A DNA stretch of 64,000 nt from Agarophyton chilense (taxonomy: Eukaryota; Rhodophyta; Florideophyceae; Gracilariales; Gracilariaceae): contig JARGXX010000022.1 in NCBI GenBank assembly GCA_030374765.1, positions 1,116,001-1,180,000 on the forward strand, given 5' to 3'. Below are positions 14,274 to 64,000 of this stretch, one piece after another (the first letter of the stretch is position 1; every line of letters starts with the position of its first letter). Position numbers and translations under genes: made by a program. The notes under the pieces are model-generated. The model did not search any database and had not been told where the DNA came from. It saw only the letters and a list, made by a program, of their open reading frames with translations.

Positions 14274-14293
14274 ATACAATCATTCGCTCAATT

Positions 14294-23520: not shown

Positions 23521-23553
23521 AGACAGGGCGAACACCTCGAAGAGGAAGTCGGC

Positions 23554-25347: not shown

Positions 25348-25372
25348 CCGGAGCTTCCGGTAGAATGTAGGG

Positions 25373-29058: not shown

Positions 29059-29072
29059 CTCTGAGGACGCCT

Positions 29073-31184: not shown

Positions 31185-31307
31185 GCTAGGCGGTTTCCTT
31201 GGAATTGGCCACACCGTCTCGACGGAAGAATAGAAAGCAAACCGGTGAGACCGGAGAAAACCCGTTAAACGGAAAACAACCTCAGAGAGGACACAAGCGG
31301 TCTTGAC

Positions 31308-31325
31308 TTCTAAGTCGGGAGACCA
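31308..31325 (-). other. Primer binding site of Gyp-B, tRNA-Tyr-like
   Basis: The minus strand reads TGGTCTCCCGACTTAGAA, 3 nt from the 5' LTR and identical to the sites of Gyp-A and Gyp-C. Confidence 0.7.
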
Positions 31326-31328
31326 ATT

Positions 31329-41700: not shown

Positions 41701-44700
41701 GGGGTTCCGCTTTTCTTAAGAAGTTGTTTGAAATGTGAGTTGAAGTTCCTTGCTTTTTTCTCTTTTACCTGTTCCTTGCCATTATCACTTCTTAAGTACT
41801 TTTCAGTCATTTTATGCCGTGTGGCGTCTGTTGCCGCATTACATTCGGCCTCGGTTGTCAGTAATGCGACGAAATTTTGTTCGCGTGATATCCGGCTTAT
41901 TAGAGTAGAGTAGACGCAGTGAAATGTGCCGTAGATTTATTCTCAATTTACTTCGTTTTTGAAGTACGCGTCGCAGTATGGTCTGAGTCGAACCTCCCAT
42001 TTTTTGTTACTATGCTGTTGGGGAAAGTAGAACATGAGTCCAGGTATCTTCTAGGAAGCGTTTGAGACCTTTTTGAGCTTCTTAGTTGTGTTTTTGAGGT
42101 TGTGGCATATGTTCATCTAGACCGTTGGTGGCATACGCAACGTTAAGACTAGTGCTGTTCGAGATATCGCAGATATCGCTGAAGAGATTCCCGTACTGTG
42201 TAGCTTGTAAAGGTGACAAATTCTTGCTCGACGGTTGATGACCTAGGATCGTTAAGTTTGTTCATAGCGTGGAAGAAGGGTTCTAGTATTGTATAATTGT
42301 TTGTCGCCAGAGAGCATCAATTGCGTCTTGTCTGAGTGTGCGAATACTATCGGGGTACCTAGAGATTCTCCACTTAGACAATCGCTTTAATGGGCCTAGC
42401 CGTTTGATCTTATGATTGATGAGAATTGGGCAATACACATCTTCGATGAGAGATTGTTGAGATACGGGTACCAGGTATCGTCCATAGTTGTGCTTACAAT
42501 TGTGTAGAATTGTGGGTTTTCAGGATGCATAGGCAGGGATCGAGTTGGAAGTTGACAAATTCGTGTGTATTGAGGGATCGCTGCACTTTACGATTGTAGT
42601 AGTAAACAGCAGGTGGAGATCCGTGTATTTTTCACACAAACGGCAGTGTGTGTTTATGTGTTGCTATGTGCCGTCAAATTTGGGCATCTATTTGAAGTAT
42701 ACGGGCCGATCGTGCTGGTATTTCTGTTGAAGATATAATGATTACATATCAGATTTTTCTAGTGGCCAATTCAAGATGGCGTGAAGTGCGAGTAGCATCC
42801 GGTGAGTGATGTGATTGGCGATGTAGGTCGTTGGGTGCTTAGGGTAATAGTAGAGTCCTGGTTTTATTAGATCTCCGCGTAGGTTGAAGAGTTCTTTTCT
42901 CTGCACCATGAGATCTTTTACTGCCCTTTTGTATCATTATGTTATCATAATTGTGATAATATCTTCTGGGGGTGGTTGAAAGACAGAGTGTATCCATTCT
43001 ATGCTGTTTCATGAGTCTATGTACCAAGTCTTGGGCTGGGATCAACTGTAGCGCTTCCGGATAAAGTCTTGCTTTTTATAAGTTGATTGTGAGTGGTATG
43101 CTGAGTTGTATTCTGGTTGTTGTTGGGTGGTTGTGCTTGCAGTATGGGTTTGAAGGCTTTGGTTTTTGTCGTAGGGGGATCGATGTGTGTGTGACATGGG
43201 TACAAGTCTGTTCCACAAATACGTTAATATGACGTGTCTGTCAGATTCAGGTTGATGATGTGGTCTAACGAGGTTGGATACATTTATTCGGGTGATGCAG
43301 CACATGTTTGGAGTTTCTTTTGGAAAACTATATCCGTATCGTTACAATTTGTCCAAAAGTGAACATTCGTGTCGGTTTGGTGTGATGTTGTACCAAAGCT
43401 GTTATGGAGAGGTACTTTATGCGATGTGATAGAAAAGGTTTTACTTGGATATTGTGTTTTGGGCGGCATTATCCCAGAAAATTTTGTATTGTTCTGATGC
43501 GTTGAGTAGTGCGCACATAAAATCAAATATAGCACGATTTAGTCTTTCGGCGAGACCATTCTCTTGGGGTTGGTAGAGTGTGCGTAAGTGGTGACAGATT
43601 TTTTGTTATTGGTGTATTACTTCGTGTTTCTACCAGGAAAGTCTGGTATTATATTGTGTGTTGAATATGATGCAAACTTGTTTCAATGTGGTGCCATATA
43701 TATATTTTTTTGCTCTTGATTAAATGAGCTATTGCGAATTCGTTTGTCGCGCATATTAGTAGAAGCATGTGCTATTTTTCATGTATCGACTTTAGGTGGA
43801 GAATGCCGCAGGTATCTGAGCTCACACACACCCCCATTGGGTACGGGTGTTGTTTAATTTTGTGTGCTGGTGGCTGGCGTTTTGCGTCCTCACAGCGACT
43901 ACACGTGAAGTAGACATTTGGTGGTAATGCCTTCAAAATGCTGGAGAATAGTCCATGACGTGCGATAAGGGCTAGCGATTCGGGATCTGCACGGTTTACG
44001 CATAACTGCCAGTTTTTTCTCATGAGTTGAATGTGCGGTTGCATTTGTTTATGAATGGGGTTGCGTAGCGTTCGTTCTTAGTGGTCGCAATTCTGGATTG
44101 GGAGTTTTTTTATTATGATGGATGGGGGGAAAGTGGTCGCTGGGGTCTTGGTCGTGAGAGTGGGGGTGGTGCTAGTCTAAAAGGTGACTGGTTTGGTGCT
44201 TTTATTATGGTGACGTTTCAATGGAAAACCCCACTGCTGTTTTGGTTGAGGTACTATTTATCATGGTGGCTTTGTTTTTGCATTTGTTTTTATTTCTATT
44301 TTGTATTTGCGAGTATCAGAAGGGGGGTTCCTCCATATTCTAAGACATATCAGTGGTTGAGTGTGAAAATTACAAGTCCAAATCTCGTGACGAGGTAGTT
44401 AATAGGTAGTTGGTTATTGAGTGGATAGTATTTTACGACTGCCAGGGTGTAAAGAGTGTTATTGTTGCTGTTCTTTAGCTCCAGATGTCTACTCTGTTGA
44501 GCTATGGGTCTTTTGGTGGCTTTCTAATGGGGTTAGAATGGGTTTAAGATGGAGGGTCATGGGGAGATGCATCTATGTAATGCGCCTGAGATGCACTGTG
44601 CTATCGAGAAAGAACGCCCAATTAACTTCTTACCTCACCTCGTATGTTGACTCAATTTCAATGTAGTTGTGACCGGGTTCCAGTTTCTTAGTGTAGTAGA

Positions 44701-45865
44701 GGGTGTGTGATTTCACTGCATGCGGGCGATTGGCTTGAGAAGTTGTTTTTCCGAAGTTTAGGTGTCCTGCATTACGGCATTGTGTATTCATGTGGTTTTA
44801 GCGGATGCTAATAGCCGTTTCATATTCGCAAAGACGGTTAAAAAGAATTCAACGAACTGGGTACTTTGTTGCGTCTATAATTGATATAGTTCTTGTATCA
44901 GGGGTTTGGTGGTCCAAATTCTCTGGGGTTTGGGATGCCGTAGTCTTCGGTGCTTCGGGATGTCGTTGTGCTGGAGAAGGAGCTGGATCGGGAAGAATTA
45001 TAGAGATTATTGAGTGATTTGAACCTTCTGGTGAAGTTTCAGATTGTGGCGGGTTTGATATATATATATATATGGCCAATAATTGGTGTCAGGTTTGCAT
45101 GAGTCTTATTTCCTGCTATAAAGAAAACGATTGTCGTGTCTTCATCCTTTTTGTTTAGGCAGCGGGCCACTACCTTCTTCTGGCGAACTACAAAGCGCTT
45201 TTTAGGTGGATGTCTATCTTTTTCCAGTTTTTGGGTTCTGTGCTTTCTGCCTGTCATGAAGAGTTTATGGTTTTTCTTGGTGGTCTAATTTATATGATAG
45301 AATATGTTCTTGGCTGATTCGTGGAACGTGGGTTTTCAAGTCCTAAGATATCATTCGTGATGCCGCTGACAATCGCTGGTAGAACTGGGTTCTTCTTGGA
45401 CTCGAAGATTTTCAGCTGGCCGTAGTAAGAATGTGGGTTTGGGTTGCTTGGAATTCGCGGTAGTGCGTCAATTGGGGCTACATGTGTTTATAGCTCCAGA
45501 TCCCATAATTTGTAGTGTGCTGTTTCTAGATCTAGTATGGTATGTGGTTTGTCGGACGTCAATGAAAGATTGCTGTTGATGTTGTGGAGTTGTTTTTTTT
45601 AAATGACTGGTGGGTGTTTTTGCGTGTGCTAGTGGCGTTGTGGTTATTGCTGGATGATGGGTTTAGACGTATTTATCGACCTATTCGTCGAACGAAGCTG
45701 GGCTTGGAGGTATCGGTGTTGAAAGATAGCGGTTGGAAATTGGCTGAGTTATTGGTTAGCGTTTGTTCATAAATTGTGAGTGGAAAGCTTTGGCCTGTTT
45801 TTTTGCTTCGTCTTTGCCGTCGTCGCTTCTCTAGTACTGTGCGGTTACTGTAATGATACTCGGAA
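41701..45865 (-). mobile_element. Cop-4: old copia relic inside Gyp-D
   Basis: The minus strand has a GAG-pre-integrase-like block (LALIARHGLFSSIL, then CSRCEDAKRQPP, about 43970-43870) and a copia-type integrase end (YQPQENGLAERLNRAIFDF, about 43575-43515). It separates two pieces of Gyp-D RNase H. Diverged direct repeats at about 41717-41830 and 45757-45860 may be its LTRs, but they could instead be related coding segments. The plus strand is strikingly G/T-rich. It is heavily broken, with too many breaks to count. Confidence 0.5.
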
Positions 45866-47106
45866 TTAAGAGGGCACATCCGAGTTGGTAGTCACTAATT
45901 TTGTATCCAAAATAAGCAGTAGTCCGGGTTTTCGCAACAATATATTTGTGCTGACGTGACAGTCTCCTTATGGATACTAACTGCGTCAGTTAGGGGTGAG
46001 TTTAAGAGGTTTAGTTTAAGGGGTTGCCTTTTCGCAGATGAGCGTTCAAGAAAGTTGCGATGTCCGCGATTTTTTTAATAGACATTCGAAAGAAGTCCCC
46101 TAATCCTACAAAGAAGCATAGTTCGCTTTGAGTTGCAGGCATGTTCGATAGCCAAAGTGACTTTACAAGAGCTTTTTCGATCATCATACTTCCAGGACAG
46201 ATAATAGGACCCAGATAATTGACAGTATCTGTAAAAAAAGTGCATTTTACCAGCCTGAGTGCAAATCAAACATAGCTGAACGTGGTCAAAATATCCTTGA
46301 AATTGGTGCGATGGTCGTGCAGACTACCGTGAAATACGATAACAAATTCCAAATGAGTGAAAAATGTACGCCACCTAAAAATCACGCTGGTAGTAGATCT
46401 TTGGAACGCCGAAAGGTAGCTGGACTACTGATCCAACCAAAAGGTTACCGTCTGACCCTGTAAAGTTCCGAAAAAACAACAGAGGCCGCCTTTTAGTGCT
46501 CTTCTTTCCTGACGGGAACTAATCAGTATCCCAAATTGGCTTCACAAGCCGTAAATATGGTATGGGTGCCGCGCTGGTAGATGTTCTCGTCCATGCCTGA
46601 AACCGGATACACGTCCTTGATAGTTAGGGCATTAAAGCGATGGTAGTAAATAATAGGAGCCAGTAAAACTAGAGTTGCTCAGAGGAACTGAGTCAGCTTG
46701 AATATTCCAGCTCGGATCGCTTTGTCCACATAACAATGTTCTTTTTGAGGATCTTTTCGGCCTTCTCTGGAAGGGTATTCACCAAAAGTTCGAGCGTTTG
46801 GCAACACGTTTATCAGATCTTCGGGTGTTATAATCTTACAAAGAAAGCCATAGTGCAGAGTGGTAAAATATGGTAGCATGTCAGGCTGTCGTTTACGGTG
46901 TAATTCCAGTGCAAGATATAATTTGAGTTCTTCAAGTTCTTTCATTGGATCAAGGTGTGTCAAAAACCGTAGAAACTGACTTTCTTTCTGCTCATGCAGG
47001 ATTCAGACTCAATGTATCCAGTTACTGAGTTTTCTTTGTCTTTAAGGTGAGCAAGACCGATAATATCGCCAAAAATCAACTTTCAAGTGTCCACTGCAGA
47101 GGAGTT
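45866..47106 (-). pseudogene. pol: pol-D relic, upstream part (linker, RT, RNase H start)
   Basis: Minus-strand blocks in order are: the protease-RT linker (IIGLAHLKDKENS, about 47060-47025); the RT approach (LPNARTFGEYP near 46800 and VDKAIRAGIFKLTQFL near 46700, compare VDKMLRAGVIEPAQS in pol-B); a later RT part (KCTFFTDTVNYLG near 46240); and an RNase H start (YQLGCALL, 45888-45865). It ends abruptly at the Gyp-E LTR, so the remaining protease and gag probably lie right of the window. It is heavily broken. Confidence 0.65.
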
Positions 47107-47570: not shown

Positions 47571-47990
47571 TTCCGCTGTCACGACGAAGTCCAAATTTCC
47601 TCATGATTGACCCAGGGGACATGATCGCTTAGTCCCTCCCAAGACCATTGGGCGAGACGGGACATCGCGTCGTCATCACTTTCATGGGGTGCGAAGCGGC
47701 GTGAGCTGACCATAGGCGCCAGAGTGGCAATTAATTTTCCTAAAGACTGAAACTCCCGCGCGCTATGGACACGGGCCATAGCTACATCGCCGGTGATTTC
47801 ATCGTGGCGCGGTAGCGCGACGGTCCCTTGGCTTATTCTCCCCTGACGGTCATTCGGGCCGTCCTTAGTTTCCGCCCTTTCTTTGGTGACCCTCCGCACT
47901 TTGTCCACCGTGGTTTACGCCTGTCAGTCCACTCAGGTCAATTTGGTTCGTCTTTTCATCGTGTTACTTTTCCATTGGTCGCGTGCGATG

Positions 47991-49848
47991 AAAAACTCTC
48001 TTTATAAGCCTGTTGGATACGCCGTTCTCCCTTCGGACTATGTTGCTCCTTTCGGCTTTCCGATCCATTTCCCGGCGGACCAGCCTGTGAGCAGCGGCAT
48101 CATAGCTTCGAAAAACCACGCTGGGAGCTCCTCAGGATATCAAGAGGCCTACGAACGTCACGGAGATCGCCATGACCATACCATCGGAGGAAACCTGCCG
48201 GCAGTGCGTCTTGACATTTTTCCGTCCTCTGTGGAAGAATACCAAAGGTTCTGCCAAATGTACCTCGACGCCCGGAGGTTCGCGACGATACCCGATTTCT
48301 GCAGGGGAAGTAAGAACGCGCGCAGCGTCTCGTGGTACACACAGTGGTTACGTTGTCCTGTGGATCCGCGTTCGGCGACGCGCTGTCGCACTATCATCCA
48401 AGCGGACATGCCGTACGTCCGCTGCGAGGATGAAGCTGAGTACCAGTTCAAGGATAACAAACTCCTTTCGGAACTATACACGGACTTCATCTCGCCTCAT
48501 GTCAGATTTTCTCCGGCGGGTCACCACCTCTTGGCGCTTATTTGCTTTCGCCCGCCGTATGTCCCACTCTTCTTGATGTCCAATACGGTCTATTAGAACG
48601 GAATGAATGAGCCCGATGGTGGTTTGCGTCAATCCCTAGGGTTCTTCTTTTATTGGCACAAAGTGAAGTCTCACGACATCAGTGCAGATAAACGTCTTCC
48701 GTTATATTTTCGGCTTCCTCACATAAATGAGAACCAATGGGCCATGTATTGGCGGGTCTCGCCGCTCCATTTGGTTCCTACGCCGTCTGTGGTGGCATAC
48801 TACTCGCCCCAGCTCATGGGCGACGAAAATGACCGACGGAAGTTCTTGGCTGTCCTGGCAGGTACTCTTCGTTGAGTTCGGTGGGATGTCCCTTATGGAT
48901 TTACTGGATACCGCGAAGTTCGGAGTCTGTGGTAATGTCCGTTTAGAAGATTGGAGGGTATGGTTCGACGAGAACATACCCGGTCGTCGAGATCACCTAA
49001 TCCCACTCCTGGACATCATGATCCGCTTCCTAAGGCATCTGGGCATCCAGAATATCGCCTGTGAGACCCAGTTCGGCGTCGAGGAGACCAAGACCCTTTT
49101 GGATCATGTCCTGCAGGTGGGGAGGAGCAGGATTCCCGGGTTCCTTTGCTATGATCACGATACTGACTCGTTTACGCCGATTCCGCTACATCCGCAGGGT
49201 CGGGATGACACTCGTGCCTATCCCGCCAAGCCTTTGAGGAGTCAACCATCGGACATTCCGAGACGTCATGCGTCTGACTATAACCCGAAGGCCATTGGTT
49301 TTGATTCCCTATGCTTGGAGCCTGATTTGGAGGCCACGCCGTTGCTTCCTGCTGGTATGTCCGATGGAGAGTCATTCGGTGAAGATCACTTCATCCTACC
49401 CGTGGAGGGCGTAAATCCTTCGGTCGAGTCCAATCCTGTGTTGCCGACCGCCTCATTTCCTCCAGCTTCTCTGGGCACCGCTCCTCAAGATGAACTCTCA
49501 AATGAGAAGCCCGTCACCCAAGTGGACATCTCTCCTGGCGAGGTTACTGTCGAAACCGAAAGTCTTGGAAGTTATGCGATGGATCAGACGTCCACTTTGG
49601 GCGTCGACATCGCTCTGTCCTCTCCTTTGCCGCATTTTTCCGCTTCGGTCATGGCTGCAGCCACGGATCTCCGTCATGTCTGCCGTACTGTTGGTATTAC
49701 TGCATCGATGAACATTGCGACAGTCATGATGGAGAATTGCTCCTGGGCGCTTCGATCAGCGTGCTACGCCCCGATTGTCCAGCAGGGTCAGAATCTGATG
49801 ACTACTATGGTCAATCTCCTGCGGCAGAATGCACAAATGATGTCTTAG
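47991..49848 (+). pseudogene. aORF-E: divergent opposite-strand frame of Gyp-E
   Basis: It starts at the ATG at 47991 (MKNSLYKPVGY) and ends with a long hydrophilic region and a helical tail (MAAATDLRHVCRTVGI...QNAQMMS). Position and direction equal those of aORF-A, aORF-B and aORF-C. Similarity is faint but colinear: RCRTIIQADMPYV against RPILRAEFRY, and FLRHLGIQN...GVEETKTLLDHV against IRRLDMRIPLGGEANEEEMLGLLDFV in aORF-B. No known domain is seen. It is broken about once. If the homology holds, the frame is older than the split between these gypsy lineages. Confidence 0.55.
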
Positions 49849-50305: not shown

Positions 50306-51220
50306 TGTAGAGCAACGCCCAGTTAGGGGATACTTGAAGATGCAACTCATAGAATGAGGATTGAACCCTCCGAGGGTTATGACTATTATCCCCTCTAAGA
50401 TGTGCTGAGGTGGCACGGTTTTCTGGTTAGAATTCGCCGATGAAGTGAAAATTCGGATGGCCCATGGTTGGATTGGCCCCGTGATACACGTGGCTTAATT
50501 TTGGCACCGATTTTTCAGATATTTGTTAGACGTTGGATTTTTGGGCCCTGACAATGGGATCTCCACGTGTATGGCCCTGAGCAGGTGTGCACTACAGTAG
50601 AGCTTAGTTAGTGGGCCCTACTTAGGGAGGCGAGATCTGACAGTCCGAAGCTCAAAGTAAATGGGAACCAAGGTTGGTCTTCGATACCTTTAGAGGTTCT
50701 TCGTCGCCATCGTTTCGGCCTTACAACCCGGAACGGGCTCTGGTTAGCAACGCCTGCGTAGGGACACGACTCCACTTGGAGAGTGCCCACGTTTGGGTTC
50801 CGTGCAACCACCCCCTTGGGACCGTTCAGACGACCTGCGTGCACGATACCCCGTGGGGGTTCTGCTTACTTGTTGCGTGCTTTTTGTGTTTCCTTTCGAG
50901 GACAGGTTTTCGCCCCTGTATTGGGTTTCTTTTGTTGTTTCGCCCCTTTTCTAGTTCTCGGGTCCGGTGCCTGTTAGTGCCCGACCCTCGCCCCGTTTTT
51001 CCTCTTCGCCGGATTTTCCCCATTCTTTGGGATACCCATACCCATTCCCGATCCAATGGTTTCTACCCCTCACCTCCGTCGGTACTGCCGGAATCCCCCG
51101 TGGGAGTTACACCCCACACTACGGGTGGAACGGAGGGCTCTGTCTCTGAGTCTGTCTCCCCCAGGGCGCAAGGCTTCGAACACCTTGAGAGCACTTCCCG
51201 TCGCCGGGTTTTGCTCTACA
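50306..51220 (+). repeat. 5' LTR of Gyp-C
   Basis: The 915-bp LTR runs from TGTAGAGCAACG to TTGCTCTACA. CACGTG sites are at 50487-50492 and 50564-50569, about 180-260 bp into U3. Confidence 0.93.
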
Positions 51221-51240: not shown

Positions 51241-51447
51241 TCCGTTCTCGGACTTTTGGGTTGGTCATCCACGTGTTGGAATATCTCTTGGAAGAGGAAG
51301 CAACGTCGTGAAGATTTGTTGTAGTGGTCCCCTTTGGAAAGGGTGGAATTGGTTTTTATTTTTGTTTTGTGTTACGTCATCCGTTCTCCGGGAATCTCGT
51401 GATCGAATTTCATCGTTACCCCGAATCGTCGGTGTCGTGTCTGCAGC

Positions 51448-53478
51448 ATGTCGCCGCCTACCCGTGGTTCCAGGACTGGATCGAACCGTCAAGCGGATTC
51501 AGTGCCCCCGGCCCCGCCTAGGTCGAGGAACTCATTTCCCGAAGATCGGAACGATTCCGGTATCGATCCGGACACTCGGAGAGCACCCTCAGTGGTTTCA
51601 GGTCCTCGAGAGGTCGTGGCTGTGGGCCCAGCTCCAGTGGTGGAGACCCCCTCAGCAGCACCCCGAAGTCGGGCCGACCCTGAATTACAGCGCCTAGAGA
51701 CTCGAATCGATATCGCCAACGCGGCTCACGTCGAGCTCCTTCAGGAGGTTACTACCCTCCGCTGCAAGGTGGAGGACGCCCAGGAGCGGGGAGTGGCCGA
51801 TGACCTTCGTACCCTGAGGAGGGATGTGAACTCCCTTTTGGAAAGCTTTGGTACCCCTGGGGTCTTTATCCAGGAGTACCGGAGCCTCGTGGAGGAACAC
51901 CGCGTGCAAGCGGAACGCTTCCGAGCTCGGCTGGACACCCTCGAGGCCATTATCCGTATGGACGGAGACACAGGAGCCTCGAAGGATAAACCCGACGTTT
52001 CGGAAGACGAAGAACACCGCTCCACTAAACGGTACCGCCGCAAGTCCAAGAAGATGGTTCACCTCCAAGAGAATTTATCGGATTCCGATCCCAATCGCTC
52101 GTCATCGAGTTCGTCCTCCGAATCTTCGGATAGTGAAGATGAACGCCGGTCATCCCGGGCGACTCGGTCGAAGGCTACTTACACCTCTCAAGGGGCAATC
52201 CGTACCCGGAAGAAGGGTAGGAAACACCTTGGATTAAGGGAGCTGAAGCCGACGAATCCTCTCTATCGGAAGCTGCTATCGTACCGCTATTACCGGTTGG
52301 ATAACCCTTCGCGAGATCGAACATCCCGCGGAACGGGTAAGGTCAAGGACTACATCAAAAGGCTGAGCATCACCCTACAGAAGAGGGAGTTCACAGGAAC
52401 AGACCCAATTCTGGTGCTCGATTTCCTTGCGAGGTTCGTCCAGGAGGCTGACATCCTCGGTATGAGTGAAGCGCAAGCGTATCTTGCATTACCCTATTTC
52501 TTAAAGGGGATGGCTGAAGACCAGTTCAACTCCGTCCGTGGATCATCCCGAGCCTCGGAAGGGGGAGTCACGTGCTGGCCCGAAGCGGTGCAGTACCTCT
52601 TGAGGTCATACGCTACTGGAAATGCGATTCAGGAAGCAATCCTTGCATTAAGGGATACGCGGCAGAAGCCGATGGAAACCGAAACGGTGTATTCAACTCG
52701 CTTGAATAAAGCGTTTCACCGATGCGGGAATGTATTCCCCGCCTACGAGAGATGCTCCATGTTTGTGGATGGTTTGGAACCCTCGATAAGGGCATTGGTT
52801 GCCCGACATCGGGAAGAGAAGCGCAAGCTGACCTACTTGGAACTGGTTCAGTACGCCCAGGCTGAGGGGGATACTCTCCGTGCCCGGCAGAACCGAAAGA
52901 GTCGGCTGACACGTGCACTCCTCGCCGATGGAGGTAACTCGTCTTTGTCACTTGCAGGAGGCCCTGCCCCTGTGGGGGTCAATGATAACATTCACTTCAT
53001 GGGAAGTAACCCCGAATCTATGGGTACGTCTGAGTTGCCGTCGACATCCGCTCCGACTACGGATGAAGACCCTGCACTTTATACCCAAGGACGGAGGGTG
53101 CCAGCCGCATCGCTACCTTTTGCGAATACCGCTGCTCGGTTCTCTCTCCCCGGATGGAGGGATACAGCACCACGTCGCGTGGATTCACGTCCACAACCGA
53201 ACCCGGCAGAGCTGATTTGCTATTTGTGTTACCTCCGTGGTCACAAAGCACCAGACTGCACATTTCCCCTACGGGAGGGTTCACGAATTATCGCTCAGTA
53301 CGAGGTTCTGACCCTTGAGGAGAAAGCTCGAGTCCCGAGTAGGTCCTATGAAGAACAAAGGATACTCCGAGCTCACCTTGCTGACAGGGATACAGAAATT
53401 GTACCCGCGAACGGGGAACAACCGGTCCCCTTCGAGGCAGCTGCACCGAATTCGGTGGGGTCCGCTTCGAAAAACTAA
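51448..53478 (+). CDS. gag: gag-C, capsid/nucleocapsid polyprotein
   Basis: This is an open frame of 676 residues from the ATG at 51448. Residues about 70-170 are helical with heptads (LETRIDIANAAHVELLQEV). A serine/arginine-rich linker follows (about 175-240), then the gag core (YRYYRLDN, LDFLARFVQEADILGMSEAQAY, CWPEAVQYLLRSYATG) at about 270-450 and a CCHC knuckle (CYLCYLRGHKAPDC) near residue 592. It is homologous to gag-A and gag-B but clearly diverged. The leader between primer site and ATG is about 207 nt. Confidence 0.92.
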   Translation: MSPPTRGSRTGSNRQADSVPPAPPRSRNSFPEDRNDSGIDPDTRRAPSVVSGPREVVAVGPAPVVETPSAAPRSRADPELQRLETRIDIANAAHVELLQEVTTLRCKVEDAQERGVADDLRTLRRDVNSLLESFGTPGVFIQEYRSLVEEHRVQAERFRARLDTLEAIIRMDGDTGASKDKPDVSEDEEHRSTKRYRRKSKKMVHLQENLSDSDPNRSSSSSSSESSDSEDERRSSRATRSKATYTSQGAIRTRKKGRKHLGLRELKPTNPLYRKLLSYRYYRLDNPSRDRTSRGTGKVKDYIKRLSITLQKREFTGTDPILVLDFLARFVQEADILGMSEAQAYLALPYFLKGMAEDQFNSVRGSSRASEGGVTCWPEAVQYLLRSYATGNAIQEAILALRDTRQKPMETETVYSTRLNKAFHRCGNVFPAYERCSMFVDGLEPSIRALVARHREEKRKLTYLELVQYAQAEGDTLRARQNRKSRLTRALLADGGNSSLSLAGGPAPVGVNDNIHFMGSNPESMGTSELPSTSAPTTDEDPALYTQGRRVPAASLPFANTAARFSLPGWRDTAPRRVDSRPQPNPAELICYLCYLRGHKAPDCTFPLREGSRIIAQYEVLTLEEKARVPSRSYEEQRILRAHLADRDTEIVPANGEQPVPFEAAAPNSVGSASKN

Positions 53479-53534
53479 ACTTGGGAGTCTCCCCTGCGGG
53501 AGGGGCGTCTTCTAAGCCGGAGTTGAAGACGCCC
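53469..53534 (+). promoter_or_regulatory. gag/pol junction of Gyp-C: stop codon plus hairpins
   Basis: Gag ends AAA AAC TAA, as in Gyp-A. A hairpin CCCCT/AGGGG starts 13 nt after the stop (53491-53505). A perfect 10-bp stem, GGGCGTCTTC (53503-53512) with GAAGACGCCC (53525-53534), follows and partly competes with it. Pol is in the -1 frame with no early ATG. Confidence 0.5.
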
Positions 53535-54450
53535 GAGGCGCTCCAGCTTCGCTCCCCAGCTGTGACTATCTTTTCAAGGAGAACGGCTGACACCGACGTT
53601 AACTCGGGATACTTTAGTGTCCTCCGTCGCCCGTGGATACGGTCCCGTAATCTCCGTATTCCGGATCGAGTTATGGTAATGGCCAAGCGGAATTATAAAG
53701 TATTCGCCGACTTCGGCCTGTCCAACCAGTTTATGGTTCGTCAAATATCTGTCCTGGATACAGGAGCCGCTCCTAACTTAATTCATGTTGAATTGTTACC
53801 CCCGCTGCTCCTGGTTCAAGTTCGTACCGGTCCACGTTTGGATATAGCCGATGCAAACAACAATCCGCTACGGACACTGGGTACAATTTCCCTCATGGTG
53901 AGGTTAGGCTCCTATCTCGTTCAGCTAGAGTTTATTGTATGCAAGTCACTTGCAGCACCAGTCATACTGGGTTGTGACTTTTGCGACCGCTTCGTGGAAG
54001 CCATCCGTCCTCGGAATAGAACTGTGGAACTCGAAGACGGGTCTACGATCCCAATCGTTCGTAAACCCTTACAGGGAGCAGCGCGAACACGCGTTCCTTT
54101 CCCTGTCGCGCAGGAATCTGTGAAGAAGGACCCGGTGTCTACACGGGTAAAGGTTGCAAAGTCAGTGGCTATCCCGCCAGAAACCCTGGTTTGGGTCACA
54201 GTTGTTACCAAGCAAATTGTTGTGCATGTGGTACAACCGAACCCGTCTCTGTATACGCGGCGTCAACTCGCCCTTGCGAATGGGGTTGTCTCCGTGGAAC
54301 CGGATAAACCTTTCAAGGTTTTGGTAGCCAACTTTGGAAAGACAACGCAGCATTTGGTCAAACACCAGATCCTGGGTTCTGTTCTTCCACACCCGCATGC
54401 GGTCGTACCTACAAAGATTTCTATCGCAGAGGTCCTTGGTGTGGCGGACC

Positions 54451-54463
54451 CTAAGGAGGGGGA
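54451..54463 (+). other. Internal polypurine-tract copy in protease-RT linker of Gyp-C
   Basis: CTAAGGAGGGGGA lies in codons for PKEGE, at the same linker position as 5429-5441 in Gyp-A. Confidence 0.5.
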
Positions 54464-57400
54464 GCGCACTGCCGAAATCGCGGAAGACGGTGAGCATACG
54501 ACTGCAGCCCCACACGCTGAACACTTTAAACCTCAGGAGGTTACGGCACCTATCACAGGAGCAGACCAGACGGATCCTGTTCAGGAATTGGAGAAATGGG
54601 ATCTCAACCATGTACCCGCATCTCATCGGGTGAAGCTGAGGCACATGCTTCGTGAATTTACCCTCATGTGGGATGGTTCCCTTGGAACTATTGGGATTAC
54701 AGAACACCGCATCGACTTGTTACCGAACACTCGGCCTATTGCCCAACACCCTTACAGGGCTGGACCGAAAGCTCGGGAAGAGGAGAAATCTCAGGTGGAG
54801 AAGATGCTTAAAGCGGGCGTAATTGAACCTGCCCAGTCCGCTTGGGCCTCACCCGTGGTGTTAGTTCCGAAACCGGATGGATCGTTGCGTTTCTGCATCG
54901 ATTACAGACGCCTGAACGAGGTAACCATTAAGGATGTGTACCCGATCCCTCGGATGGACGAATAAATCGACTCCCTTGGGAGCGCTACTGTTTTCTCTAC
55001 CCTCGACGCCAATTCGGGCTACTGGCAAGTCCCTATTAGGGAGGAAGATCGAGACAAAACGGCTTTCGTGTGTCATCAAGGACTTTTCCGATTCCGGAGG
55101 ATGCCTTTTGGGTTGACAAATGCCCCCGCAACGTTTCAACGGGCGATAGACATTCTGTTGGCTCCCTTCAAGTGGAGGACGTGTCTAGTTTATTTAGACG
55201 ACATTATTGTCTTCTCCAACAACCTGGATGACCACCTCGAACACGTCAGGGACGTAATGAAGATACTCCGCGACGCGGGAATCACCTTGAAACTCAAGAA
55301 GTGCGAGTTTTTCACCGATTCGGTTAAGTATCTGGGTCATATCATCCGTCCCGGACAGCTTTCAATCGAGGAAGTACGAGTGAAATCCTTGAAGGAAGCA
55401 AAACACCCGAAAACTCAAACGGAGTTGCGATCCTTCTTAGGTCTGTGTAACGTGTATCGCCGATTCGTCCCGAACTTTGCGAATATTGCCACCCCCCTCA
55501 ACAGGCTCCTGACGAAGGGACAACCAGTTGAACTGGAACCTTTCGGCGACGCGGAAGCGTCTGCCTTCACGGCACTGGTGAATGCCGTAACATCACCGCC
55601 AATCTTGGCTCTACCCAATCCTGGGCTCCCTTACGAAGTGGACACCGATGCTAGTGCAAACCAAGTAGGGTGTGCACTGTTTCAATCCTCTGAGGATGGC
55701 GAACGTCACCCTATTGGGTACTGTTCACGTTCCCTGAATGTCCATGAAAGGAACTACTCGGTCTTCGAGAAAGAATGTTTAGCCGTTGTGTGGGCCTTAG
55801 CTACACTTCGCCCCTATCTGATGGGTACTCGTTTCAAAGTCCATACGGACCACGCATGTTTGCGTTGGCTCCTGGAGATCTCCGAACCCTCGGGCCGCCT
55901 TATGCACTGGCGTCTCCGACTGTCGGAATTCGACTTTGAGATCCTGTACAAGAAAGGGAAGCTGAACACTCAGGCTGATGCACTATCCCGCTTGGGAACC
56001 ACAGCGGAAACGGAACCCTACGAGGACGATGAAATCCCATGTTTTATGGTATCGGACCTCGAGGGAGGAGCTCAACCGCTGACGGATGATGTTTGTGACG
56101 ATATACTCGTCAACGAGAGTCTGGATTCGCCGACCGACTCTTTTATACCTATCTCTCCAGAGGAGATGATACGCGAGCAACAGCTCGACCCATTCTGTAC
56201 ACGGATTCGGGCTCGCCTCAACGGAGGATTTCAGTTACCTTTCGAGGACGACGATCAGGGTTACCTAATCAGGACCGTTGGACCTCGCCCGAGGATAGTG
56301 GTGCCGCACACCCTACAACAGAGGGTATTACACCTCACTCACTATGTGAAGGTTGGCGCCCACCCCGGGGGAAGAAAACTGTACCTCACGTTGAGAAGGG
56401 ACTTTTACTGGCCGGCAATGGCATTCGATTGTTACGCCGTCAGACGGGCCTGCGCCAAATGCGCCAAGAATGACGTCAAACTTCGGAAGCACTCTAAGAA
56501 GTTGACGCTGTTCCCGGCACGGGCTCCACTCGAATTCGTGGCCATAGACATCCTAGGGCAGTTTATCAGGACACCCCGAGGTCATCGGTATCTGCTTGTC
56601 ATTTCTGACAGATTCTCTAAGCTAACGAGAACTGTGCCGCTGAAGCGGATCACCGCCGCTACCGTCGCGCAAGCGTTCGTGACCCATTGGGTGTTCGTAT
56701 ATGGACCGCCGGTGCAGTTGTTATCCGACAACGGAGGGCAATTCGCATCAAAGTTCTTTCAGGATGTATGTCGAATCCTTGATGTCAGGAATTTATTTCT
56801 TACTACGTATCACCCTCAGGGGAATGGCCAGGTGGAGAGGTTTAACCGCACGATACTCAACGCTTTGAGATCGTATGTTGCGGATCACCCCAAAAATTGG
56901 GACTTGTACACAGACGCTATCACGTATGCATACAACACCCAGGTACATCGGGTTACATCGTTATCCCCATTCGAACTGGTACTGTCGAGGACACCGCCGC
57001 CGGTCGCCATCGAGGCTCAACCGACGCTGTCGACGTACCCGTCACCGGGATTGTACCGAGAAGCCTGGAAGGAGTGGCTTACGAAGATGGTGCCGATAGC
57101 CCGGAAAGCAATGGACAAAGCTCAACGCGCCTACAAGAAGGACTTTGACAATCGGGTTCGCAAACCTCTACCTCAGGTGGAGCCCGACGACTTCGTCTTC
57201 CTTCGAAAGGAATACTACAATCCTGAAAAGGAATGTAGGCACAAGCTTTCGCCAATTGTGGACGGACCCTATCGTGTGGTTTCTGTAGACCCGGACATGG
57301 TGGTATTGGATATCGCTAACCGCCACGAACGGATCTCCAGGGACCGCATCACACGAGCGCCCAACCCAAATGTGGAAGTGTTGTCGGCACCAACGCCCTC

Positions 57401-57609
57401 CACAGGGGATGATTCAACGGAAGTTAACCCGTCAAGCGGAGATTCGAACACCCGCCCCGTTATACTTCCGCACCCGGAACGTGGTTTAACCGACCTACCG
57501 GAAACTTCGGATACTCCCGAACCTGGGCCCGCTCCCTCAAGGGCCCAGTCAACGAACTCTCACAGAGTTACTCCCCCACCGGAGGTAATCAAGCCTCCTG
57601 GCTCTCCGC

Positions 57610-57622
57610 CTAAGGAGGGGGA
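57610..57622 (+). other. Internal polypurine-tract copy in pol-C tail
   Basis: CTAAGGAGGGGGA lies in codons for PKEGEE, between integrase and chromodomain. It matches 2819-2831 in Gyp-A and 26774-26786 in Gyp-B. Confidence 0.5.
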
Positions 57623-58170
57623 GGAGGACTTAGTTCCTTCACAGGACGAAGTTTCGGCGTCAGCCAGTCGCCCTAACAGGGAATCTAGTTCTCACAGTGA
57701 GACGGCGAGCCCGACCGAGCCTGCGACAGAGAAGTCACAACCCCAGCGTATGGGTAGCGACATCTCCGCCGACCCAGCCGAGCACGACGTCAGAAAAGAT
57801 GACGAAACCCCGCCTAGTGAGAGTCGTGTGGAGAACTCCGCACCCGAAACGCCTACAGAGCCGACGATCACCCGCCGCCGCGGACGAGACACTGAGGTGT
57901 CGCACACTCAAACCCCGCTTTCTCGGGAACGAGCTGTGTCAGCGGACCCGCACGGGAAAGATCTCGACGACGAGGTTGACCAAATTTGGCTCTCCGTTAT
58001 GGAATGGGAATAGGAACTCCTATGGAGACACTGGAACCCTCAGGAATGAGAAAGAAATGAGTGAGACCCGTCGGGGACAGCTCAGGAGAGTGCTAGCGCG
58101 TGTCGAAAGCGCCACCTAACATCCGCTTGCGGAGTGGCAACCGGCGCCCGCGCATTTATGTGGCACACGT

Positions 58171-58276
58171 CGAATGGCACCGAGCCAATCAAAAGGCTCT
58201 GACGACCAACCGTCGCGCAATCCGCCTCACCGAGCCAATCAAAAGGCTCTGACGACCAACCGTCGCGCAAACCGCC
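58171..58276. repeat. Tandem pair of about 50 bp
   Basis: CACCGAGCCAATCAAAAGGC and the following 30 bases occur twice in a row with about one difference. Close by, 58127-58155 repeats a 28-bp segment of the aORF-C end (59399-59430: CCGCTTGCGGAGTGGCAACC and onward). Confidence 0.8.
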
Positions 58277-59029
58277 TCCGTCGCACGGCGAGTTGCACGA
58301 GAGCAACCTTCGTCCCCGTAGCTCTGGTTGACGTTGAAGTCCTACCCCCCTGAGATTGGAGACGCTACCGCGTCGCGGTTTCTCAACCGTCACGGAATCT
58401 AAGAACACCGTTGTTATCGGGAAGATCTCAGTTTTAAGAAGAACCCAAAACTGGGCCGGTTTGACTCCGTAGACGGAAGTTACAACGTAGCCCACAGGCC
58501 ACTCGGCGCCGTTTGGACGAAGTGCTGAGACCCGCTCGCAACACGGAAAAGAACCCACCGGGGTGTGTCTAGACCCTACGTTGACACCCTCAAGGGAACT
58601 AGAGCGTTCCAAGATGGAAGAGAAGCCCGAACAGGGAAAAGTGTACCCGCAGGAATTCGTTATCGATCGCATCGTGCGTCACATCTACACCCCCGAGGGA
58701 GAAGTCCGCTACCAAGTCCGATGGTACGGATTATCGCCTGATGAGGATACAGTGGAACCCATTGAGCACCTTCCGAGGTCTAAGGTTTTATCCAATCACC
58801 GACGCGCTCGGGTAACCTTGCCTCCAAATCTGGATCGTGCCCAAGTCGGGTAAGCCACCACGAGAACTGTTGTGGATGCGACCTCGAAGTGAGGAAGATG
58901 TTGGACCTCTGAAGAGGAATTGAGGAGAGTATCCCGAAGAACACGTATTGAGAGGGAATGTCTACTGGCCCTCGGCCTAGCGCCGTTAACCGGGGAACAC
59001 AGCACCGGTTATCGGGACAGTTTATGATG

Positions 59030-59200
59030 AAAAAGGAAAAGAAGACCCACGAAGTGGAGAAGAAGATTAAGAAGAAGATTGGAGCCTAGGAAAAGAAGAA
59101 GATGAAGACGAAGATGAAGAAGGTCCTAAGAAGGAATGAAGAAGATGAAGTAGAAGTTAAGATCCTAGGAAGGAAGAAGAAAAGAAGATATGCAAATATC
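59030..59200. repeat. GAAGAA-rich spacer between pol-C and aORF-C
   Basis: The plus (element sense) strand is nearly all purine, with GAAGAAGATGAAGACGAAG-like runs. Gyp-A has a shorter equivalent at about 1803-1900. It could be simple-sequence slippage or a priming or transcription-end element. Confidence 0.6.
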
Positions 59201-59254
59201 AGAAGTTTACTATTGTCACCAAGCTATGGACCCTACAATTACCCGAAGGCGGAA

Positions 59255-61111
59255 CTACGGAAAGCCCGAGGAGGGACCCGCCCCACCGTTGGGATTCTGA
59301 CCCTGATGGTACGCCGAGGCGAAAGCCAACATCTGGCTCACATCTGTCATACCCGGGGGAATCGGAATGCCCGCGTTCACGAGGCCTTGTCGCACACTAT
59401 CCGCTTGCGGAGTGGCAACCGGCGCCTGCGCAAGGGGGTTCACACCCCACCCGGGGGGAGCAGATGCACCGCCACCGGATGCATTCGCCGCCGCAGCTGA
59501 GGTCGTTCCCACTGGTTGGAAGGGTGCAGATGGCTCCACAGGGAGTACTCCACTAGGAGCTGGCATGTCGTTATCCAACGCTGGATCGTCCAGGTCTACT
59601 GGAGGCTCGTACTCGTAATCGTCGGTATAAATGAACCCCGTCGGGTGTCTCACCGGCATCGGTCGAGGCGAGTCCATCAGCGCCCGTGCTTGCGCCGCGC
59701 TGATGCGAACCCCTTCGAAGGGATTGTAATAGACCCAGTTACCGGAACCCGGATCGTACCGACCAGGAGACTTGTCTCGCGCCGATCCTTCCCCGGCGGG
59801 CTGATTTTCCACTGGAACTCGATCCCATTGGGTGTTGTCGATCACGTCCAAGATTGGATACGGGTCTTGCACGTTGCTGACCGAACCCAACGCTGGGACA
59901 AGCTCGATCTGACGCATGAAGGTCCGTAGCATCGGAGGAATATACCAGACACGGAAATGGTCATGGGCATCCCAGAGGAGGTGCGCCGCTACGCGGGCTG
60001 CCCACTCGGCTGCAACGAGGGCCCAGTATCCCGAGTTCAGGTCGTGCATCAAACGAGACCCGATATAGTAGATGCACGGGGGCAGTTCAGCAAAGCACCC
60101 TCGGGGGACCCCGATCTTACTACACCAAGCTAGAAGGGGCACGAATCGCCCAACCTTCGCCGTGTTACGGATACGCTCCAGTTCCACGTGAGGATATAAG
60201 ACAAGGAACCCGAAACGGGAGCGCGAGCGGCGCTCGAAGCGAACGCGTCGATCGAACCCATACTGGGTAAACTGCCGTTGAAGGTACCTAAGTTCAGCCC
60301 GAAGGATGGGACGACTCCATTGGAGCATATCTTCTCGGAGAGGAAAACCCGGTCCGCGGAACTCGGCTTCGGGAAAGGCTGCCAGGTTATCCCCGTAGGA
60401 GACCTCACCGTACGTGCGGTAATAGGCGACATCGAACCCGTACTCCGGGGGAACCATATGGTCAAAGCGTGACCTCTCCAATCGCTGGTAGGCCAGAGCC
60501 GCCATCGCTGCGCGCGCCTTGTCCAAGGACTCCCCGCCACTGCGGTATAGATACTGAGGCTCTATGGCCACTCGCGCCCTCCAATCGGGAGAACGTACAA
60601 CCTCGATAGGTAGGCCACCCGGCAATAAGCCGTCCTCCACGTAGGAGTCAATGAGCTCATCGTCGCGAACCGCTGTCGGATGGAACCACGGAGTGCGGGA
60701 GTATATCACCGAATCGGTAAGGGGACTCCACCTTCGAAAGGATTCGTTTGAGATCCAACCTCTGGAGTTTGCTACCAAGGGCATCGCATGAGCGGAGTTC
60801 CACGCCACCGCGTTAATGTCCAAATCCTCCTGAGGATGTTGGTTGCTCGCCGAGGCGGAAGGTTCGGTACCTGACGGAGCCGCATCCAAACCGGAGAAAT
60901 ATCCACCCTGCTGGGGAGTTTCGTTATCCACCGGCGCGGAGGCCGACGGCCCCGAGAGTGGGTTGGTGACGTATAGGTTCATTCCCTTGAGAGGGTTGGT
61001 TGAGACTGCTGTTGCGAGAAGTTGCGTATCGCCGAAAGTCGGAGGAGTAGAAGAAAGTTGTACCGATGTGCCGGTTTTGTGACGATCCTCAGAAGTGGTG
61101 AAGGACCCCAT
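59255..61111 (-). CDS. aORF-C: intact opposite-strand protein of Gyp-C, family unknown
   Basis: This open frame of 618 residues starts at an ATG at 61111, about 65 bp inside the polypurine tract, and runs against pol. A serine/proline-rich head (1-130) leads to the conserved core: SRTPWFHPTAVRDDELIDSY (about 133-152), SPDWRARVAIEPQYLYR, EYGFDVAYYRTYGEVSYGDNL, RPILRAELRYLQRQF, GFLVLYPHVELERI, GCFAELPPCIYYIGS, WYIPPMLRTFMRQIEL, NWVYYNPFEGVRISAAQA and RHPTGFIYTDDYEYE (about 505-520). The tail is glycine/alanine/proline-rich. Many aromatic and arginine residues are conserved across aORF-A, aORF-B and aORF-C. I see no signal peptide, membrane segment, zinc site or known catalytic motif, so the function is unknown. 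An open frame of this length in an element with LTRs about 3.7 percent apart argues for past selection. Confidence 0.85.
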   Translation of the reverse strand: MGSFTTSEDRHKTGTSVQLSSTPPTFGDTQLLATAVSTNPLKGMNLYVTNPLSGPSASAPVDNETPQQGGYFSGLDAAPSGTEPSASASNQHPQEDLDINAVAWNSAHAMPLVANSRGWISNESFRRWSPLTDSVIYSRTPWFHPTAVRDDELIDSYVEDGLLPGGLPIEVVRSPDWRARVAIEPQYLYRSGGESLDKARAAMAALAYQRLERSRFDHMVPPEYGFDVAYYRTYGEVSYGDNLAAFPEAEFRGPGFPLREDMLQWSRPILRAELRYLQRQFTQYGFDRRVRFERRSRSRFGFLVLYPHVELERIRNTAKVGRFVPLLAWCSKIGVPRGCFAELPPCIYYIGSRLMHDLNSGYWALVAAEWAARVAAHLLWDAHDHFRVWYIPPMLRTFMRQIELVPALGSVSNVQDPYPILDVIDNTQWDRVPVENQPAGEGSARDKSPGRYDPGSGNWVYYNPFEGVRISAAQARALMDSPRPMPVRHPTGFIYTDDYEYEPPVDLDDPALDNDMPAPSGVLPVEPSAPFQPVGTTSAAAANASGGGASAPPGWGVNPLAQAPVATPQADSVRQGLVNAGIPIPPGMTDVSQMLAFASAYHQGQNPNGGAGPSSGFP

Positions 61112-61175
61112 TGGGAGAAGTATGTATAGTGATCGGAAAGTTAGACACCCGCGGCTCGGAATGTTCTTCCTCGTC

Positions 61176-61190
61176 TTAAGGAGGGGGAGA
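61176..61190 (+). other. 3' polypurine tract of Gyp-C
   Basis: TTAAGGAGGGGGAGA immediately precedes the 3' LTR. Confidence 0.85.
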
Positions 61191-62104
61191 TGTAGAGCAA
61201 CGCCCAGTCAGGGGATACTTGAAGATGCAACTCATAGAATGAGGATTGAACCCTCCGAGGGTTATGATTATGATCCCCTCTAAGGTGTGCTGAGGTGGCA
61301 CTGTTTTCCGGTTATATTTCGCCTATAAGGGAAAATTCGGATGGCCCATGGTTGGATTGGCCCCGTGATACACGTGGCTTAATTTTGGCACCGATTTTTC
61401 AGATATTTGTTAGAACGTTGAATTTTTGGGCCCTGACAATGGGATCTCCACGTGTATGGCCCTGAGCAGATGTGCACTACTGTAGAGTTTAGTTAGTGGG
61501 CCCTACTTAGGGAGTTGAGATCTGACAGTCCGAGCTCAAAGTAAATGGTAACCAAGGTTGGTCTTCGATACCTTTAGAGGTTCTTCGTCGCCATCGTTTC
61601 GGCCTCACAACCCGGAACGGGCTCTGGTTAGCAACGCCTGCGTAGGGACACGACTCCACTTGGAGAGTGCCCACGTTTAGGTTCCGTGCAACCACCCCCT
61701 TGGGACCGCTCAGACGACCTGCGTGCACGATACCCCGTGGGGGTTCTGCTTACTTGTTGCGTGCTTTTTGTGTTTCCTTTCGAGGACAGGTTTTCGCCCC
61801 TGTATTGGGTTTCTTTTGTTGTTTCGCCCCTTTTCTAGTTCTTGGGTCCGGTGCCTGTTAGTGCCCGACCCTCGCCCCGTTTTTCCTCTTCGCCGGATCT
61901 TCCCCATTCTTTGGGATACCCATACCCGTTCCCGATCCAACGGTTTCTACCCCTCACCTCCGTCGGTACTGCCGGAATCCCCCGTGGGAGTTACACCCCA
62001 CAATACGGGTGGAACGGAGGGCTCTGTCTCTGAGTCTGCCTCCCCCAGGGAGCAAGGCTTCGAACACCTTGAGAGCACTTCCCGTGGCCGGGTTTTGATC
62101 CACA
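61191..62104 (+). repeat. 3' LTR of Gyp-C
   Basis: This 914-bp LTR ends TGATCCACA. CACGTG sites are at 61372-61377 and 61449-61454. It differs from the 5' LTR at about 34 positions. Confidence 0.93.
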
Positions 62105-62208: not shown

Positions 62209-64000
62209 TTAGAAAGAAATAAATTTAGCCGGAATAGATTGAGGCTCTTGCCAAGTGTCTTCTTCAGGCGCGTAGGCGAACCAACGGACGCAATAGCGCA
62301 TATTCCTATCTTCTCCCAGATCGGCGGAGATGATGCGATCATTCATGAATTCAGGTTGTTGTTCATTCTCCCGAAGGAGAGTGTATTCCAGTTGGACGAA
62401 TCCATCGGAGTCGGTTTGAAGAGATGTGTCGTCGTCCTTGGAATTGATCATCAAGTCCATGGGGCTATTCGGGTCTGCGAGAACTGCCTTAGAGGGTGTG
62501 GGGACTTGAGCGTCGACCTGAGGTCGTAGTGATTCCGTTGGTCCAAAAGACTGGGACTTAGGTGATACGGCGGAGCTGGGGGCTCGTGTCACCCGATCAA
62601 TAGATACTGTGTCCTGTAGGCCGTCAATTAGTAACGTAATGGTATGTTGATTGGCCTTAAGAACTTTGTATGGTCCCGTAGAGCAGGGTAAGAGTTTCCG
62701 CGTAGTGCCCTCGTGGTCCTCACTGTCCTTCGGTAGCCGGTCCAGGTAAAAAAGTTCTCCTTTCCCAAAGGTCGGTGTGTTCCAAACGGCCTTATCGAAA
62801 TTGACCTTGTAACGCCGTTGGGCTTTGATCAGTATAGTTCTCGCCGATTGGATAGTGCGGTCGATGCGTCGGCGCAAGTAGCGCTTCGCCTGTGTGAGAG
62901 TCATTCCTTCGGTTATTTCTTGGGGTATGATAGACTCCTGAAGGTCAACAGCTATCGGCGGCGGCGCTCTCGTCAGCGTTAAGTCGAAAAGTGTTGTTGC
63001 CGTGGAAGCGTGCACTTGAGTGTTGTATGCATAAACCAGTGGCTCAACGTAGTCGTCCCAGTCCAATTGGTGTTCCGATACGTAGTGTGCCTATCGGTCC
63101 AGATGGGTGCGGTTGAAGCGTTCGGCTTGGCCATTAGTGTGCGGGTGGTACGCCGTGGTGGTCACATGTTTGATACCTAAGGTCGCACAAACGTGTGAAT
63201 AGAATTTGGATACGAACTGGCTGCCGTTATCTGTAAGGAGTTAGAGTGGCATGCTATATGGATATATCCAGTGGTACGAGAAGGCCGTGGCGACATCCGT
63301 GGCTGTTGTCTTCTCTAAGGGTAGTGCTCGGGTAAGTTTGGTAGACCTATCTGTTATAACCAAGACAAACCGTTTTCCATGGGACGACTTAGGCAAAGGC
63401 CCAAGTATATCCATCGCGATGAATTCCATCGGACCTGCGGCGGTAAAGAGCTTCCGTTTGGCCTGATGGTTGGCGCGAGACCCTCGGATTTGTGCGCACG
63501 ATGTGCAGTTCCGTGTGCCTTGCCCTAGGGCCTGCGCCATTAGTGGCCAGTAAAAGAACCTCAGTACGGTCTGGTACATTCTTCGGCCTCCAGGGTGACC
63601 AGCCAAGCAAGGGAAATGGGCGAGGTATAGTAATCGCGCACATAGCGAAGTTGGTATTACCCGTTGGAGTGCCCCATCCAGCGCTGACTGGCGACTGTAG
63701 TCCAAATCGGTCATAGTCGAACAGGCATCCACGGGTTCGTACCAATTGGGCTGTTTCCTTGCAGTACACGTGTTCGACCTGCGTCTGTAGAATTTCCTCA
63801 ATAGTTATCGGGAGGAGCTCTTTTTCCTTCGGGGCTATCGCGTTAACCTGAGGTGGTGTCAATTGGGCGGTACTGTCTCCCAGTCCAATAGTTGTACATC
63901 GTTCTCCTTTACCTCAGCATCCCTCGATTGCATTATACCCATAAGGTCATTCGTTTCCGTATAGACCTGAGGTCCATCGTCTGTAAAGGGGGTAGGAAAT
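62209..64000 (-). pseudogene. pol: pol-E region (integrase and chromodomain), continues off window
   Basis: On the minus strand from the right: a tail that leads into the integrase zinc region (HFPCLAGHPGGRRMYQTVLRFFYWP with CTSCAQI, about 63610-63490), catalytic blocks AMDILGPLP (about 63410), NGSQFVSKF (about 63225) and NGQAERFNR (about 63130), an integrase end with AYNTQVHASTATTLFDL (about 63030), GPYKVLKANQHTITLL (about 62670), and a chromodomain-like end (MRYCVRWFAYAPEEDTWQEPQSI, about 62295-62230). It is only distantly similar to pol-A, pol-B and pol-C. It is broken, with about three breaks in view. Confidence 0.8.

Follow-up and report, generated by a model that had tools for sequence, protein, structure and literature searches.

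A protein-coding antisense gene between pol and the 3' LTR of chromoviruses in the red alga Agarophyton chilense

In a stretch of 64,000 nucleotides from the red alga Agarophyton chilense (hereafter the window; contig JARGXX010000022.1, positions 1,116,001 to 1,180,000), the LTR element Gyp-C carries a long open reading frame on the strand opposite to gag-pol. Does this antisense frame (aORF) encode a protein that is kept by selection, and what could such a protein do for the element? The features of Gyp-C are as follows.

50306-51220, plus strand: 5' LTR (TG...CA)
51403-53478, plus strand: gag, which aligns with the gag of element A, itself a match to Retrotrans_gag
53385-58013, plus strand: protease, RT, RNaseH and integrase frames (53385-54965 and 54966-58013), assigned with Pfam
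58626-58853, plus strand: chromodomain-like end of pol in another frame, assigned from its resemblance to the pol ends of A and B
59255-61111, minus strand: aORF-C, antisense gene of 618 amino acids, open frame, pN/pS 0.52
61178-61190, plus strand: purine tract AAGGAGGGGGAGA, read directly; it separates the aORF start from the 3' LTR and is presumably the polypurine tract
61191-62104, plus strand: 3' LTR, 96.4% identical to the 5' LTR

The aORF-C begins with an ATG at 61111 and ends with a stop at 59255, within an open frame that spans 59255-61207. Its open length of 644 compares with 375 in the best shuffle, and none of 1000 dinucleotide shuffles of the region 58017-61190 reaches 644. The element itself is bordered by a possible target site duplication, TAGAC directly before the 5' LTR and TAAAC after the 3' LTR, in which four of five bases match. 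Its pol frames match RVT_1, RT_RNaseH, Integrase_H2C2 and rve in Pfam, with a protease match below the cut-off. Two tandem copies of 50 bp (58178-58278, 98% identical) separate the pol frame from the chromodomain-like end.

Homologues of the aORF lie in four further elements of the window, here called A, B, D and E.

1-1737, plus strand: aORF-A in two frames (3-1076 and 1024-1737), frameshifted near 1024-1076, with its start before the window
22641-32194, minus strand: Gyp-B, with LTRs at 22641-23506 and 31329-32194 that are 98.7% identical
23554-25347, plus strand: aORF-B, homologous throughout and interrupted at 24610-24612 by a stop in frame
about 39460-40660, plus strand: aORF-D, a relic with many stops found by tblastn, beside minus-strand pol remnants within 40897-46957
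47847-49848, plus strand: aORF-E, a remote homologue recognised by profile comparison; it is split into three frame pieces and converges with the pol of E
62209-63913, minus strand: end of the pol of element E, integrase part, with a Chromo match below the Pfam cut-off, separated from aORF-E by the insertion of Gyp-C

The preliminary description of this DNA had proposed antisense frames of about 560-620 codons in three elements, A, B and C. This size holds for C, which is open over 618 codons; the frame of B is interrupted by its stop and that of A is frameshifted, and with the relic D and the distant E the number of elements rises to five. Open versions of aORF-B are found in many other genomic copies. 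The start of aORF-A, earlier set at position 51, has to be moved, because the ATG of open A copies maps about 153 nucleotides before the first base of the window (locus L049). The proteins of A, B and C align colinearly, with 34-48% identity between families, and the colinear blocks described before are seen in these alignments. Gyp-B is flanked on both sides by the target site duplication ACGTG (22636-22640 and 32195-32199), and LTR pairs are seen in B and C; in A, an LTR is seen on the aORF side only. Element D is a decayed minus-strand element, and the interval 42001-46000 between its pol remnants shows a strong skew of G over C (0.29-0.32) and an excess of T over A. Since Gyp-C sits between the pol end and the aORF of element E, E was in place before Gyp-C inserted. 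On the strand opposite to aORF-A there is a sense frame of 327 amino acids (904-1887). It is probably due to chance, because the sense frames over the aORF in five other A copies contain at least eight stops; the longest open stretch in them has a median of 256 codons.

The assignment of aORF-E depends on how much of the protein is compared. Its 373-residue piece gave no match to the aORF profile (hhalign probability 0.3%, E-value 0.21), and the alignment of aORF-E with a longer genomic copy, L085, gave a score of 50.0 with a probability of 79% (E-value 1.7e-5, a value for one comparison). L085 alone scored 45.3 (66%); the highest score among 30 shuffled sequences was 26.7, and the reversed sequence scored 12.0. 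The pol proteins of E and C share only about 40% identity. All five elements that were found in the window by tblastn with pol carry an aORF in the same place and orientation, and the distance between the stop of pol and the stop of the aORF is 402 nucleotides in C (pol stop at 58851-58853), 334 in B, 193 in A and about 556 in E when Gyp-C is left out. Thus the earlier placement of the aORF between pol and the polypurine tract is borne out for C and likewise for A and B, and the gene has the orientation and place of the frames known as aORF-3R, which run opposite to gag-pol in the interval from pol to the 3' LTR. Domain content (RT, RNaseH and integrase, with a chromodomain at the C-terminal end) places A, B, C and E among the chromoviruses; the Pfam Chromo match is above the cut-off in A (E-value 2.8e-6) and below it in B (5.3e-4) and E (1.5e-3), and the chromodomain end of C is assigned by likeness.

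Three other long frames lie elsewhere in the window. A frame of 453 amino acids on the minus strand (12123-13484), the charged and repeat-rich C-terminal half of which is coded by tandem repeats at 12254-12637, looks like a relative of Uma2-type nucleases with a coiled tail. The frame at 14069-15289 (406 amino acids) may be a Tc1/mariner-type transposase and that at 16695-18671 (658 amino acids) may be an integrase-RT piece of a copia-type element.

The genome searched for further copies comprises 79.76 Mb in 135 contigs and holds at least 71 aORF matches of family C, 108 of B, 114 of A and 110 of E. By eye, 43 of the 71 scored C matches are without an internal stop. Tags that allow up to three mismatches locate 246 sites for the C aORF and 303 for the C chromodomain, and among the first 100 chromodomain sites listed the aORF is in place at 73 (68 by exact tag and five by protein match). 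The gene is therefore present in most copies of family C. Outside this assembly, database proteins that match the aORF are four Agarophyton chilense fragments with 84-93% identity and, more distantly, the hypothetical proteins BWQ96_03215 and BWQ96_10156 of Gracilariopsis chorda and the proteins P0001, P0004 and P0009. The Agarophyton matches led to the rejection of a fungal or oomycete host, and a plant-type telomere pattern had no match. In each protein search 8000 candidates were scored, and none of the matches is named as fungal (three are without an organism name). Searches of viral contigs and of bacterial and archaeal genomes returned pattern matches, none of which was confirmed by tblastn, and no relative of known function was found in any of these searches.

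Comparison of the copies reveals that the aORF is a protein-coding gene and that selection acts on its protein. Pairwise Nei-Gojobori counts were pooled to obtain pN/pS, with 95% intervals taken over codons. For family C the sample consisted of the window copy and 40 best-scoring copies (41 sequences), of which ranks 2-21 were taken regardless of stops and 20 further stop-free ones came from ranks 22-61; L047, whose alignment starts at nucleotide 6, was left out, as were two copies of 1851 nucleotides in the 38-copy estimate. The pooled value for the C aORF is 0.518 (0.417-0.636, 38 copies), and it is 0.486 when the window copy is combined with 19 others chosen by rank, whether or not they contain stops. 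For comparison, gag of the same family (window copy and five of 66) gives 0.599 (0.405-0.890, 6 copies), so that the aORF is conserved at a level like that of other proteins of the element. Values for the other families are 0.61 in B (18 copies, from 20 of 108 scored after L060 and L063 were dropped for shifted tails) and 0.53 in A (5 copies, from 6 of 114 after L075 was dropped), and two copies of E (the window copy and one of 110) show a dN/dS of 0.31 at dS 0.53 over 337 codons. The protein-level selection that had been suspected from the protein blocks is thus upheld, with ratios that are not near 1.

A constraint on the sense strand, the alternative raised in the preliminary description, does not explain this conservation. 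Four other frames over the C aORF DNA give pN/pS values of 0.84-1.16. The only comparable sense frame, which shares the third codon position with the aORF, has a value of 0.54, yet in all 40 C copies it is interrupted by 19-24 stops, and we reject sense-strand constraint on this ground.

Selection is not even along the gene or over the frequency of changes. In C the pN/pS is 0.45 for residues 136-430, 0.42 for residues 521-618 and 0.64 for the two other parts, and the core and the C-terminal tail are thus the most constrained parts. When changes in C are sorted by frequency, the ratio is 0.70 for those seen in a single copy, 0.43 for those in two or three copies and 0.37 for those in four or more, a trend that fits decay of the copies once inserted together with continued selection on the active lineage. 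The corresponding values in B are 0.75, 0.76 and 0.36, with the middle class (two or three copies) no lower than the singletons. Amino-acid identity to the window copy is 92-95% for the aORF, 95-96% for gag and 96-97% for pol; hence the aORF changes slightly faster than gag and pol in amino-acid sequence.

The protein is rich in arginine and aromatic residues. No significant Pfam match to a known domain was found, the sole match up to an E-value of 5 in a scan of eight members being TetR_C_31 in one member (E-value 0.29), and no relative in the PDB was better than an E-value of 1.4 by sequence. AlphaFold2 on an 11-row alignment returned a model with mean pLDDT 31 and pTM 0.20, which is uninformative. 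The maximum Kyte-Doolittle hydropathy over 19 residues, calculated for a single member of each of the families A, B and C, is 1.08-1.19, so no strongly hydrophobic segment is present; an Env-like protein is therefore not supported, the gene moreover being antisense. An inverted copy of gag is rejected as well, since profile comparison of the two proteins shows no similarity (hhalign probability 0.1%). The tail of the protein, which looks disordered, ends in a short conserved segment (for example VIAQFLREVGL...AMRDALANRL) in A, B and P0009-P0011 and, more weakly, in C and P0001. By eye this segment looks like a small helical interaction module.

Given the antisense position and the short distance from the ATG to the 3' LTR (79 nucleotides in C and 47 in B), expression of the gene would require an antisense transcript with its start inside this LTR or adjacent to it. 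A conserved antisense promoter was not found in the LTRs by comparison of A, B and C and by diversity along the C LTR. The LTR parts of the three families share no common block longer than 23 bases (A being represented by 351 bases only), and among the 100-base stretches measured, diversity peaks in the U3 part of the C LTR (pi 0.059 at 61300).

What happens to copies that lose the gene is informative about where its product acts. Four of the 27 sites without the aORF in place, among the first 100 chromodomain sites listed, were read. L081 and L082 have one deletion in common, which corresponds to window positions 59942-60891 (950 bp, residues about 74-390) and falls at a short direct repeat, CGGAGRAATAT; a template switch during reverse transcription would produce such a deletion. 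In L083 the aORF has lost 165 nucleotides in frame, and L084 retains the whole aORF in a broken frame. A tag for the 950-bp junction occurs at 46 genomic sites (35 exact, 11 with one mismatch) and, compared by eye, explains 13 of the 27 sites, L081 and L082 included; 12 of the 27 fall outside both the reading and the tag. At least 18 of the 46 junction sites are paired with gag or pol among the matches listed. At least four of them have gag at 8.4-8.6 kb (8.48 at full length) and at least three at 7.0-8.0 kb, and at least seven have pol at 4.5-5.0 kb (4.96 at full length), two of these also with gag. At least six have gag at about 4.4 kb, that is, about 4 kb are lost between gag and the junction, and these shorter copies are a possible gag-only non-autonomous form. 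The 46 sites may not all be independent, as some pairs (for example on C13 and on C27) have a rare base in common and could be segmental duplicates. Unless many of them are such duplicates, copies without the core have multiplied, and the core of the aORF is therefore dispensable in cis.

The gene is thus under selection and yet its loss is compatible with spread, which fits a trans-acting factor, either a helper or a repressor. On balance, we regard it as somewhat probable that the aORF is an old and stable protein-coding component of a group of red-algal chromoviruses and that its product is most likely a trans-acting accessory or regulatory factor, probably nuclear, with a helper role. The gene, which lies tail to tail with pol, would supply a soluble, arginine-rich protein made of a conserved core (residues about 135-430 in C) and the short conserved C-terminal segment. 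Such a factor might aid the RNA or DNA of the element in expression, escape from silencing, export or entry, and copies without an aORF would be served in trans by intact ones. What the data show is the place and frame of the gene, its homology, its copy number, selection on the protein and the spread of copies without the core; antisense transcription, trans action, a nuclear site and a positive role are proposed. A helper is favoured over a repressor, since a repressor within a selfish element could hardly sustain selection comparable in strength to that on gag. Several observations speak against this reading: the spread of copies without the core would equally suit a repressor or a gene that the element can do without, fold and known domains lend no support to a nuclear or nucleic-acid role, the aORF changes slightly faster than gag and pol in amino acids, and the U3 of the C LTR, the expected site of an antisense promoter, includes the most variable stretch measured, while the LTRs of the three families have little sequence in common.

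The first alternative is that the aORF product is a repressor of autoregulatory kind, or one that controls copy number, and works in trans on every copy; deletion copies would then stay repressed by the others and could still spread. HBZ of HTLV-1 and p22 of Ty1 follow a comparable logic. The spread of copies with one common deletion and the convergence of the aORF with pol agree with it, as do the retroviral antisense genes and transcripts described as regulatory in the available text of PMC10186651. However, purifying selection for a repressor inside a selfish element would require a benefit at the level of the lineage, and the selection is about equal to that on gag. We therefore consider a repressor unlikely, if worth keeping in mind.

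Still less convincing is a structural role, in which the protein would work with gag, for instance as a particle-associated component or one for cell-to-cell spread. Selection of a strength similar to that on gag and the many aromatic and arginine residues are in its favour. However, the protein has neither a strongly hydrophobic segment nor a profile similar to that of gag, copies without the core multiply, and the antisense orientation would uncouple its supply from that of gag-pol; in our opinion this role is improbable.

It could also be argued that the antisense RNA is what matters and that the open frame is a by-product, as antisense RNA may be regulatory in LTR elements according to the available text of PMC7264820 and PMC10186651. 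This is very improbable and indeed already contradicted, because selection acts at the codon level: among the frames, only that of the aORF and the stop-filled mirror frame that shares its wobble position have pN/pS well below 1, and the proteins of different families can still be aligned. That the aORF is a passenger, derived from a single insertion of another mobile element or of a host gene into an ancestor, would suit the failure to find a relative of known function, but it is scarcely credible in view of the same place and orientation in five elements despite the divergence of pol between E and C, and of the selection among copies.

If the aORF is indeed a trans-acting helper, a wider and more tentative picture can be drawn, which we put forward with the odds somewhat against it. 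Red-algal chromoviruses may have a protein family of their own that is older than the split between Gracilariopsis and Gracilaria/Agarophyton and older than the divergence of pol, and a lineage of deletion elements may feed on the trans-acting antisense gene in a helper/satellite system, perhaps one of counter-silencing. If true, this would be a natural helper/satellite system built on an antisense gene. With hundreds of copies, selection close to that on gag, natural deletion copies and no detected relatives of known function, the family allows a direct test of trans action and of help versus repression. No mention of the red-algal family or of its deletion copies was found among the top 3-20 titles of each search of open-licence PMC papers.

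Antisense genes are known from other LTR elements, and the likeness to plant antisense frames pointed out in the preliminary description is apt. Boty-like elements with the antisense gene brtn are reportedly the subject of work by Zhao in 2011. Frames of the aORF-3R type are described in the plant elements Grande, RIRE2, Retand and PvRetro13 and in the fungal Boty, with their function given as unknown in the available text of PMC7264820. The plant frames (Grande gene23, RIRE2, Retand ORF4/TRP28 and PvRetro13) resemble the aORF in being antisense, in lying in the gap between pol and the 3' LTR, in occurring in most copies and in being conserved to a similar degree as other proteins of the element, as far as described in PMC7264820 and PMC11963269. 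However, their hosts are flowering plants, whereas the present element lives in a red alga and carries a chromodomain. Retand, which is linked to TRP28, belongs to a non-chromovirus lineage (PMC11963269, available text), and TRP28 (PF04195) is absent from the aORF in the Pfam scan of eight members.

A closer precedent in element type is fungal. Boty-like elements of Botrytis cinerea have a CHROMO domain together with the antisense gene brtn (PMC4227169, available text), so that the combination of an antisense gene with a chromodomain is in itself not new. The likeness between Boty and the Gyp elements, all of them LTR elements with a chromodomain and an antisense gene, is one of description, and the host of Boty is a fungus.

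Among retroviruses, HBZ is a bZIP protein, and no Pfam match of that kind was found in the aORF. HBZ of HTLV-1 and ASP of HIV-1 are expressed from promoters in the 3' LTR (PMC10186651, available text) and, like the aORF, are encoded on the antisense strand; they belong to different elements and hosts, and for the aORF a promoter in the 3' LTR is deduced from position. The aORF thus adds a case from a distant lineage to the antisense accessory genes of plant elements, of the fungal Boty and of some retroviruses, and it bears on whether antisense genes originated more than once at one place, for which a promoter in the 3' LTR may be the reason.
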